Source: Candidatus Bathyarchaeota archaeon
Lineage (GTDB): Archaea > Thermoproteota > Bathyarchaeia > Bathyarchaeales > Bathycorpusculaceae
DNA: 64,000 nt
Assembly: GCA_023488905.1 (NCBI GenBank)
Contig: JAMDCQ010000013.1
Coordinates: 62,001 to 126,000 of the forward strand
Direction: 5' to 3'
Position 1 is the stretch's first letter. Every line of letters begins with the position of its first letter. Position numbers and translations under genes: made by a program. The notes under the pieces are model-generated. The model was not told the DNA's origin. It made no database searches and was given only the letters and a program-made list of their open reading frames with translations. This document shows positions 2 to 26,627 of this stretch, in pieces.

Positions 2-592
2 TTGTCGCTTGACGAGCACCGCAACATACTTTTTGATTGTAATAGCAAAACCGATGATGTCTGCAAAGAGGTTCTGGAGGCAATCATCGCGGGGTTCGAG
101 TACGCTTGCCGTGCTGGTCCGTTGTGTGGTGAACCGATTCGGCACCTCAAAGTCAACCTCCTCGATTTCGAACTTGACGAAGGTGCAGAGACTAACTCTG
201 AGGTTATGCGAGGCGTCGGCAAAGCAGTCTTCGCAAGCTTCCTTACCGCAGACCCAACCCTCCAAGAGCCCATCTACAAAATAATAATTACCGTTGCGTC
301 TGAACTTGCCAGCGAATCCTCGCGAATCATCTCAACCAGAAGGGGCAAAGTTACCTCTTTTGAGCAGAAGGGACTGCTAAGTCAAATCAGCGGCTACATC
401 CCAGTTGCCGAAACGTTTGGTTTCTCCAAAGAACTCCGCTCCGCAACGTCGGGCAGAGCTGTATGGCAGTCCTTCTTTGACCACTGGGAGAAAGTGCCCC
501 CTAAACTTGCCGCAGAAGTCATCGTTGAACTACGCAAACGCAAAGGCTTAGCGCCTGAAGTTCCTAAACCTGAAAAGTTCATGGAGCAGTAG
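2..592 (+). CDS. EF-2 family protein, C-terminal part (5' end outside window)
   Basis: This is the last 196 residues of a translation elongation factor 2-type GTPase, covering domain IV and domain V; the G domain lies upstream of the window. Recognisable segments are AGPLCGEPIR, the GYIPVAETFGFSKELR stretch, SGRAVWQSFFDHWE and the tail RKRKGLAPEVPKP. EF-2 normally catalyses ribosomal translocation. The oddity is the domain IV tip loop: where archaeal and eukaryotic EF-2 have a His-x-Asp-Ala-x-His-Arg-Gly stretch carrying the diphthamide histidine, this protein reads LDEGAETNSEV (residues 58-68), shorter and without histidine. It may be a second, paralogous EF-2. Family call is firm, role as the main EF-2 is not. 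Confidence 0.9.
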   Translation: MSLDEHRNILFDCNSKTDDVCKEVLEAIIAGFEYACRAGPLCGEPIRHLKVNLLDFELDEGAETNSEVMRGVGKAVFASFLTADPTLQEPIYKIIITVASELASESSRIISTRRGKVTSFEQKGLLSQISGYIPVAETFGFSKELRSATSGRAVWQSFFDHWEKVPPKLAAEVIVELRKRKGLAPEVPKPEKFMEQ

Positions 593-594
593 AC

Positions 595-1455
595 ATGCAG
601 CTTGAAGTTGTGTTTGATTTGGATTTTTCGCTCTGTTGTGGGCAGGTGTTTCGTTGGAGAAGAATCGCTGGTTGGTGGTATGGGGTTGTCGGCGATAAAG
701 TCATCAAGATTCGACAATGCGGCTCGGAGTTGGAGTTTTGGGGTGCCAGCGACCGGTTTGTACGGCAGTATTTTAGGTTAAACGATAATTTGACTGAAAT
801 CAACAAGTGTATCGCTAAAGACAGCTACATCCAAGCTGCGCTTAAGCGGTTTGAGGGGTTGCGCATAGTACGACAGGTGCCCTGGGAATGCCTTGCCAGC
901 TTCATCTGCGCTACCTACAAGAGCATAGCCGCCATAGAGTTGATGCTGCGTAAAATTTCTGAAAAATATGGCGAAAAAAGGGTCATTGATGGCTTGGACT
1001 TCTATACTTTCCCGTCCGCTCAAAAGCTTGCGGGTGCAAGCGAGAATGGGCTGCGTGAATGCGGTTTAGGTTACCGCGCAAAGTACTTACAGGCGACCGC
1101 TAGAAAGATTGTTGACGACAAAATAGACCTTGAAGCCCTCAAAGCTCTGCCATATTTGGATGCGAGGAAGAAGCTTTTCGAGTTTTCGGGTGTTGGTTTG
1201 AAGGTGGCTGATTGTGTGTTGCTGTTTTCGCTGGAGAAGCCAGAGGCGTTTCCGGTGGATGTCTGGGTTAAACGGGTAATCCTCAACCACTATGCTGACC
1301 AGCTCCCTGCGGAGTTAGTGACGAAGATGAAAAGCCATGACTCCTTAACTAACGGCGAATACCAAAAAATCGGCGGCTTTGCCCGCATATACTTCGGCCG
1401 CTACGCAGGTTACGCACAGGAGTACCTCTATCACTACGAGCGGACGCAACATTAA
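595..1455 (+). CDS. ogg: 8-oxoguanine DNA glycosylase/AP lyase (OGG1-type)
   Basis: This bifunctional base-excision repair enzyme removes 8-oxoguanine from DNA and cuts the abasic site. The 286-residue protein has an OGG N-terminal domain (residues 1-110, starting with CGQVFRW-like sequence) followed by a helix-hairpin-helix GPD domain. The hairpin GVGLKVADC carries the catalytic Lys at residue 203, and PVDVWVKR carries the catalytic Asp at 222; the 19-residue spacing equals that of Lys249 and Asp268 in human OGG1. It starts 2 nt after the EF-2 stop codon, so the two genes are probably cotranscribed. No sign of damage. Confidence 0.93.
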   Translation: MQLEVVFDLDFSLCCGQVFRWRRIAGWWYGVVGDKVIKIRQCGSELEFWGASDRFVRQYFRLNDNLTEINKCIAKDSYIQAALKRFEGLRIVRQVPWECLASFICATYKSIAAIELMLRKISEKYGEKRVIDGLDFYTFPSAQKLAGASENGLRECGLGYRAKYLQATARKIVDDKIDLEALKALPYLDARKKLFEFSGVGLKVADCVLLFSLEKPEAFPVDVWVKRVILNHYADQLPAELVTKMKSHDSLTNGEYQKIGGFARIYFGRYAGYAQEYLYHYERTQH

Positions 1456-25600: not shown

Positions 25601-25789
25601 ATGAGCAATAAAATTGTAGATGAAAAACACGCTAAAGAAGCACTCAAAGAAATGATAAAAGACCGAAAGCCAAACGAACCAGTAGAGGAAGTTCTCGCCA
25701 TATTTTGCCAGCGCTACGGCCTTACCATGGCGGCATGTAGAACCTTCTATGAAGATTTGGTTAAGAAAGGCGAAATCAAAGAAAAATGA
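25601..25789 (+). CDS. small helical protein upstream of dphB
   Basis: A 62-residue charged protein (KHAKEALKEMIKDRKPNEPVEEVLAI, then RYGLTMAACRTFYEDLVKKGEI). The second half looks like a small helix-turn-helix but no family is certain. The ATG lies about 25 bp after a TATA-like GTATTATAG, so the message should be near-leaderless. It probably opens the dphB operon. Confidence 0.6.
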   Translation: MSNKIVDEKHAKEALKEMIKDRKPNEPVEEVLAIFCQRYGLTMAACRTFYEDLVKKGEIKEK

Positions 25790-25829
25790 CTTAAAGCCCC
25801 CGCGCCAGATAACAGGGTTAGGGCTTAGA

Positions 25830-26627
25830 TTGACTGAACTTGTATTCATAGGGTTAGGGTTAAACGATGACAAAGGAATAACCCTCAAGGGCTTAGAGGA
25901 AACCCAAAGCGCAGATGCGGTGTTTATGGAGACCTACACCAGCCGCATGCCTGACTTTAACATGGAGCGCTTCGAGGCAGAGTGCGGCAAAAAAGTCCAG
26001 CTTATTACGCGCAGAGACCTTGAAGAAGACAGCGGCAAAGTTGTCCTTCAAGCCGCCAAAGCAGGCAAAGCGGTGTTTTTGGTGCCCGGCGATCCCTTTA
26101 TCGCCACCACCCACGTGACACTGCGGATTGACGCGGAAAAAATGGGCATAAAAACCCGCATCGTCCACGGCATATCCATTGTGTCCGCCATCGTTAGCCT
26201 ATCTGGGCTGCACAACTACAAATTCGGCAAAACCGTCACCGTCCCCTTCCCAGACAACTTCTCGGAAACCCCCTACAACGTCATAGCGCAGAATAGAAAG
26301 CTGGGTTTGCATACGCTGTGTCTTTTAGATTTGAGGGCAGCGGAGGACAGGTACTTGTCGATTAAAGACGCACTCAAGCAGTTGCAGTTGGTGGAGGAGA
26401 AAAAGAAGCTAGAGGCTGTTACTCCAGTCACGGTTGCAGTCGGCATCGCCAGGGCAGGCAGCAGCAAACCCACTCTAAAAGCGGGCTTCGTCAAGGATTT
26501 GGTTGACTGGAACTTCGGGGAGCCCCCCTTTAGCCTCATTATTCCGGGGGATTTGCATTTTATGGAAATCGACGCCCTAATCGCTTTCGCGGGTGCACCC
26601 GGCGAGTTTAGGAGGCTTGCCAAATGA
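25830..26627 (+). CDS. dphB: diphthine synthase
   Basis: A 265-residue S-adenosylmethionine methyltransferase that makes the diphthine step of diphthamide on EF-2 histidine. It starts LTELVFIGLGLNDDKGITLKG, the usual N-terminus, so the TTG at 25830 is chosen rather than the frame start at 25749. Then FLVPGDPFIATTHVTL, VHGISIVSAIVSLSGLHNYKFG and PEFxE-like VAVGIARAGSS are conserved. It overlaps the DUF357 gene by ATGA. Its presence shows that the organism probably makes diphthamide, although the EF-2-like gene at the start of this window lacks the target histidine. Confidence 0.93.
   Translation: MTELVFIGLGLNDDKGITLKGLEETQSADAVFMETYTSRMPDFNMERFEAECGKKVQLITRRDLEEDSGKVVLQAAKAGKAVFLVPGDPFIATTHVTLRIDAEKMGIKTRIVHGISIVSAIVSLSGLHNYKFGKTVTVPFPDNFSETPYNVIAQNRKLGLHTLCLLDLRAAEDRYLSIKDALKQLQLVEEKKKLEAVTPVTVAVGIARAGSSKPTLKAGFVKDLVDWNFGEPPFSLIIPGDLHFMEIDALIAFAGAPGEFRRLAK

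Follow-up and report, generated by a model that had tools for sequence, protein, structure and literature searches.

The window, the whole stretch of 64,000 nucleotides that was analysed, begins inside a gene for an EF-2-like protein without an intact diphthamide loop. It belongs to a genome of 1.79 Mb in 23 contigs, estimated to be 90.9% complete. The window gene and its relatives are referred to as type B, and a second EF-2 of the same genome and its relatives as type A. The following features of the window were used.

2..592, + strand: type B EF-2-like protein, C-terminal part (residues 511-706, domains IV-V), from the open reading frame and Pfam
173..211, + strand: degenerate equivalent of the diphthamide loop plus flank, LDEGAETNSEVMR, without the His and Arg of HRG
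595..1455, + strand: OGG-type 8-oxoguanine DNA glycosylase (Pfam OGG_N 64 bits, HhH-GPD 51.1 bits)
25749..26627, + strand: diphthine synthase Dph5 (TIGR00522 283.6 bits, cut-off 114.3)

The type B gene

The open frame at 2-592 (+) encodes 196 aa and is the C-terminal end of an EF-2-like protein whose start lies upstream of the window. The full frame (L004:8473-10593) encodes 706 aa, its remainder outside the window being L004:8473-10001. In the full protein GTP_EFTU, GTP_EFTU_D2, EFG_III, EFG_IV (37.2 bits) and EFG_C (72.3 bits) were matched in order, each above its Pfam cut-off, and EF-G_D2 scored under its cut-off. The domain order of canonical aEF-2 (GTP-binding, II, III, IV, V) and the GTPase motifs are present. 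Against the TIGR00490 aEF-2 equivalog model the protein scored 668.1 bits, below the cut-off of 738.45. An AlphaFold model of the window part had a mean pLDDT of 74.9, with ten-residue blocks of domain IV at 48-73 and most of domain V above 90. In other genomes of the family the OGG gene likewise follows type B on its downstream side, where it serves as a marker of the native EF-2 locus.

In the window part, LDEGAETNSEV occupies residues 58-68 (window 173-205), as the initial annotation had reported, and stands in place of LHEDPVHRGPAQ, the corresponding stretch of type A. The diphthamide histidine is absent. Canonical archaeal EF-2 carries a modifiable His within HxDxxHRG, which we take to be the diphthamide loop motif and which was also observed in the type A rows; type B lacks it. 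The initial annotation had placed Thr or Asn at the position of the modified His. The multiple alignment gives a deletion of His and Arg instead, L-H-E-D-P-V-H-R-G-P-A-Q becoming L-D-E-G-A-E-(gap)-(gap)-T-N-S-E, and the gap was placed differently in the pairwise alignment. Related type B genes were read from 29 further genomes of this family, the closest being that of G141 (90% identity over domains IV-V). Their His was absent in 27 of 29. Mis-assembly of the loop, which had been raised as a possible explanation, is held unlikely because none of these 29 genes has an intact loop.

A second EF-2 and the diphthamide pathway

EF-G/EF-2 domain IV was matched in two genes of the genome, the window gene and a type A gene on contig C13. 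The type A protein (738 aa) retains the loop LHEDPVHRGPAQ, with LHEDPVHRG kept, and scored 839.6 bits against TIGR00490, above the same cut-off of 738.45. The known archaeal diphthamide pathway consists of Dph2, Dph5 and Dph6. Dph2 (TIGR03682, 296.5 bits) and Dph6 (TIGR03679, 278.3 bits) were both found in the genome above their cut-offs, and the diphthine synthase that the initial annotation had recognised in the window was recovered at 25749-26627. The true start of this Dph5 is probably internal to the called frame, because the TIGR00522 match begins at residue 31. Across the class Dph2 was found in 224 of 250 genomes, including 73 of the 75 with type A (exceptions G151 and G213).

The remark in the initial annotation that dph5 is useless in the absence of a target histidine no longer applies, since the other EF-2 supplies that target. 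The substrate of Dph5 is likely to be the type A EF-2 on the other contig, and type A is evidently the client of Dph2, Dph5 and Dph6. A sole EF-2 accompanied by decaying dph genes, the case that would have spoken against a second paralogue, was not found in this genome; it is ruled out by type A on C13 together with Dph2, Dph5 and Dph6 above their cut-offs.

Distribution of the two types

One set of 250 class genomes was searched with the C-terminal parts of both B and A, and matches came from 215 of them. Type A was called at a minimum identity of at least 66% over domains IV-V and was found in 75 genomes, all from four families (f1, f2, f4 and f5) of the window's order. Type B was read in 122 of the 144 matching genomes of the order, giving 123 rows, with two copies in G060. 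The 22 order genomes without a B row comprise 16 with A only, G012 (which has both genes), G039, G126, G199, G201 and G221. Within the window's own genus, type B was found in 29 of the 31 genomes of the set. The two type B genes of G060 (L048, L049) both have an intact HEDPVHRG loop and represent a different kind of duplication.

The state of the histidine in B was compared with the presence of A. Of the 123 B rows, 54 come from genomes in which A was not found and have kept the His, every one with the exact HEDPVHRGPAQ. Where A is present, the His was lost in 46 of 58 rows; the remaining 12 of these kept it, five with the exact motif and seven altered around the His. In 11 rows His was lost and A was not found. 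HEDPVHRG was kept in all 48 type A rows read.

Genomes with A only make up 16 of the 75 A-bearing genomes and are spread over several genera. Re-testing 11 of these 16 with the Pfam domain IV model gave one match above the cut-off in each, and one A-only genome, G136, is listed at 100% completeness.

In the wider genome collection the best 80 of 460 matches contained 62 named type A loci (L128-L189) at 66% identity or higher. Among these best 80 matches the A loci were labelled mostly Candidatus Bathyarchaeota or Bathycorpusculum, with a minority of Crenarchaeota, Nitrososphaerota and uncultured archaeon labels and one Rickettsiales bacterium. Judged by these relatives, the window's genome belongs to the Bathyarchaeia. 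The locus labelled Rickettsiales, L137, is a type A fragment with 92% identity to the A of the window's genome and is probably a mis-binned contig. L143 has, some 2 kb beyond the full gene on its downstream side, extra short stretches (10571 and 10603) with 88-91% identity to part of A.

Further irregular EF-2 frames were seen among the genomes searched. EF-2 genes from other families of the class, L301:95-4090 (G064) and L302:325-4134 (G082), contain an intein in the GTPase P-loop (DHGK / CVSGDT...), with a LAGLIDADG domain (Pfam Intein_splicing and LAGLIDADG_3), and EF-2 frames of 1200-1275 aa in G030, G035, G091 and G109 may hold the same intein type. In the EF-2 of G018 (L041 / L303) the P-loop reads GLLIPPRTT for AHIDHGKTT, which may reflect a frameshift, an intein edge or an assembly error. 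A 1394-aa frame in G062 (L304:134-4315) joins many TPR repeats to EF-2 domains and is either a true fusion or an assembly error.

Rows without the histidine and without type A

The 11 rows with a His-less B and no A found come from two genera that both have A-bearing sisters, five from the window's own genus of 31 genomes (G072, G134, G144, G177 and G189) and six from genus g35. At L182, L184, L186 and L187, which by coordinates belong to the g35 genomes G159, G169, G168 and G124, A lies in a conserved block with uS19 and ArgS (named by eye). ArgS was therefore sought in the seven g35 genomes without A. It was absent in G024, G056, G102 and G133 and cut at a contig end in G105 and G184, the latter also without B found. 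In G205 ArgS is whole and the contig ends 1.4 kb further on without A. Because the essential ArgS is missing together with A, the pattern points to assembly or binning gaps as the explanation of most g35 exceptions. A His-less B as sole EF-2 in g35 was dropped as a candidate, since ArgS at the A locus is missing or cut in most such genomes. G205 and the five own-genus exceptions stand as cases against an A-linked loss of His.

Phylogeny and gene order

All trees were 'quick' trees. In a 69-row tree B formed one clade grouped with the EF-2s of the class (support 99) and A a separate clade (support 100) on a long stem. A grouping of A with Micrarchaeota in this tree was lost once outgroups were added and was taken for long-branch attraction. 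In a 46-row tree, which included Micrarchaeota and three EF-2s of solved structure, presumably euryarchaeal, A fell outside the other EF-2s of the phylum (support 99). The genome rows of both trees came from the window's own phylum, and neither tree held a row known as Asgard or Korarchaeota. A clade of A and B was rejected by the AU test (p-AU 0.0018), and with it the origin of A as a recent duplicate of B within the order.

The neighbourhood PurP - kinase - B - OGG is common, whole or in part, to the family f1 genomes examined. These are the window's own genome, G177 and G130 with an altered B, G170 and G142 with A and a His-bearing B, and G006 with a His-bearing B only, whose contig covers the OGG side of the locus. 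PurP, kinase and OGG neighbours were not seen at the B loci of the B-only genomes G196 (f2) and G128 (f4), so the gene order speaks for family f1 only. Both genes lie at one locus in 9 of the 62 named A loci among the best 80 of 460 matches. At eight of the nine, A lies head-to-head with B and separates it from the kinase; the ninth locus is too short for its neighbours to be seen. At the other A loci looked at, A is located elsewhere than beside B.

Since phylogeny places B with the EF-2s of the class and gene order puts it at the shared f1 locus, the window gene is well supported as the native EF-2 of this Bathyarchaeia order, at a locus common to its family. The initial annotation had given as the simplest reading either a second EF-2 paralogue with another role or a main EF-2 that has lost the site. 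The existence of two paralogues stands, with the HRG-bearing EF-2 on C13, and type B may have another role; which copy is the outlier is reversed, the HRG-bearing one being the divergent gene.

Type A would be either an added gene or an old second gene that has disappeared from most families. A gain from outside is less than proven, because the placement of A together with the wider class was not rejected by the AU test (p-AU 0.086). In a search of 300 phylum genomes that also covered the own order, matches from outside that order reached at most 52% identity to A; in the genome collection the first of the best 80 of 460 matches below the type A group reached 49% over domains IV-V, and no donor clade was found in either set. 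These results, and the presence of A in four families, would fit an ancestor of the order that carried both genes, with A lost later in most families. Such differential loss would require that B was never relaxed in the 54 rows without A, whose loops are unaltered. It also sits poorly with two A genes from f4 and f5 that group together (support 100) among f1 sequences, which looks like transfer between families. We regard differential loss as unlikely.

A tree of 63 B rows was built with the loop columns removed and rooted on the EF-2s of the class. B-only rows with His branched first, followed by the group with A and a His-bearing B, and then by the altered rows. By parsimony this tree needs four changes of His state and nine of A state. 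In an independent-pairs test with 8 pairs, none of 200 draws contained a pair favouring a link between A and His loss, and 2 draws contained one pair opposing it. With four changes of His state and no support from the pairs test, the link depends on a small number of events. The g35 B genes were placed among fast altered genes of f1 (support 82), which may reflect transfer or long-branch attraction.

Features kept and lost in altered type B

The 49 B rows without an intact HEDPVHRG, termed altered B, were set against 56 His-bearing EF-2 rows; five of the 49 still have a His at that position. Entirely or for the most part, altered B has lost the diphthamide loop and its flank (598-611 in A numbering). 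H492, the His of SPNKH, is invariant in the His-bearing rows (100%) and remains in 8% of altered B. Leu528 and Trp533, together with the part of domain IV around them, and Gly556, Gln558 and Gly587 are likewise lost wholly or in most rows. In structures of EF-2 the SPNKH and diphthamide loops are close to each other at the end of domain IV, the part that reaches into the decoding centre. The GTPase motifs were retained (DTPGH 49/49, NKxD 49/49, HGKTT 48/49).

Between the window's genome and G141, dN is 0.069 and dS 0.852 for B (dN/dS about 0.08 for this one pair), and 0.044 and 0.512 for A, so that the two ratios are about equal. In five further altered-type B pairs and in G130/G155 dN was well below dS. 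Judged from these substitution patterns, altered B is under purifying selection.

A redundant old EF-2 on its way out, decaying slowly and with no distinct job, would account for the A-only genomes in several genera and for the faster change of B, which differed more than A in 105 of 105 pairs among 15 own-genus genomes, about 3.2-fold by the median of pairs. Decay agrees badly with the low dN/dS of the G141 comparison and with the retention of B in nearly all genomes of the own genus. Across the 49 altered rows, moreover, 205 columns are conserved at 90% or more, among them Ala126 of B, which is absent from all 56 His-bearing rows. We judge slow decay very unlikely.

Type B could alternatively serve as a translocase without diphthamide under stress or low energy, during starvation or for a subset of mRNAs. 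Its five domains, its GTPase motifs and the purifying selection would fit, and yeast EF2 without diphthamide is viable. To our knowledge Bacteroides EF-G2, the model for such a role, carries no diphthamide. In the available text of PMC6989115 it is an additional EF-G with a role of its own, increased on carbon limitation. Against a stress translocase, the loss in most altered rows extends beyond the modified His to the SPNKH histidine and a portion of the domain IV arm. Loop length and loop sequence also differ from species to species, unlike in a part that still reads the A site. We consider this role unlikely.

Proposed takeover of EF-2

The reading that we prefer, and consider probable as a whole, is an EF-2 takeover in which the old copy would persist as a ribosomal GTPase that does not translocate and may act in aIF6 release. 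Its evolutionary part, the takeover of the native EF-2 by A, appears highly probable from the comparisons above. Many genomes of the order contain a second, deeply divergent EF-2 with a diphthamide loop and, where it is present, native B has in most cases lost its own loop, the histidine of SPNKH and a portion of the domain IV arm, with GTPase motifs and purifying selection retained. Type A would then perform translocation with diphthamide. Altered B would still bind the ribosomal factor site and hydrolyse GTP, would no longer translocate, and would retain a subset of the original jobs of EF-2. In other A-bearing lineages native B was not found; A can cover the job of B, as the A-only genomes show.

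In the portions available of PMC8024482, recombinant Sulfolobus EF-2 without diphthamide hydrolysed GTP on ribosomes and released aIF6 from 50S subunits, and the release proceeded in the absence of mRNA and tRNA. Since that reaction ran without mRNA and tRNA, aIF6 release, or other work that a GTPase performs on the free 50S subunit, would be the likeliest job remaining to B. As the specific role of altered B, aIF6 release is a tentative suggestion and on balance doubtful.

Comparison with known systems

Efl1/Ria1 is a eukaryotic paralogue of EF-2 that releases eIF6. Type B resembles it as a five-domain EF-2-like, putative ribosomal GTPase beside a canonical EF-2; a common origin is not claimed. 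Archaea are said, in the text available of PMC8024482, to lack Efl1. The jobs of EF-2 might have been split as between eEF2 and Efl1, here by replacement, with the newcomer translocating and native B as a dedicated GTPase of the 50S subunit (aIF6 release or subunit quality control), and intermediate stages of the replacement might survive in living relatives; taken jointly, we find this rather unlikely.

His-less second EF-2s have been described in archaea that lack dph genes (PMC10307638, in its summary of Narrowe et al. 2018). As far as that summary goes, both cases share a canonical EF-2 accompanied by a second one that lacks the diphthamide His; there the paralogue goes with loss of dph, whereas here Dph2, Dph5 and Dph6 are kept. 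The His-less copy is, moreover, the native EF-2 here. What is already known is the existence of His-less second EF-2s; what differs is that dph is kept and that the His-less copy is native.

The closest evolutionary parallel may be that of EF-1alpha and EFL in eukaryotes, where, according to the part of PMC3699394 at hand, native EF-1alpha is divergent if EFL is also present. The distribution described in that part comprises native only, both and alternative only, as here; the factor and the domain of life are different, and both genes of the dual lineages were judged there to be vertically inherited (PMC3699394). Bacteroides EF-G2 is alike as a second translocase-family GTPase with a distinct role and differs in being bacterial, with fusA remaining the essential factor and no takeover, so far as the text available of PMC6989115 describes it.

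In the literature on diphthamide and on archaeal and Bathyarchaeota EF-2 paralogues no account of the present case was found, and an earlier mention, for example in Narrowe et al. 2018, is possible. Four Bathyarchaeota EF2 sequences were added to a tree in PMC5484517, the available part of which does not name a second type.

Significance

EF-2 is an essential factor that is as a rule encoded by one gene per genome and that serves as a marker in phylogenetics. Here a second EF-2 appears to have displaced the native one and to be the only copy that retains the diphthamide site. Trees of Bathyarchaeia EF-2 can mix two different genes. Genomes with the native gene only, with both intact, with the native gene altered and with the newcomer only all occur within one order. 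Comparison across these genomes could reveal the regions of EF-2 that are tied to diphthamide, the SPNKH loop and a portion of domain IV changing along with it, and the functions of EF-2 that are left after translocation has been removed.
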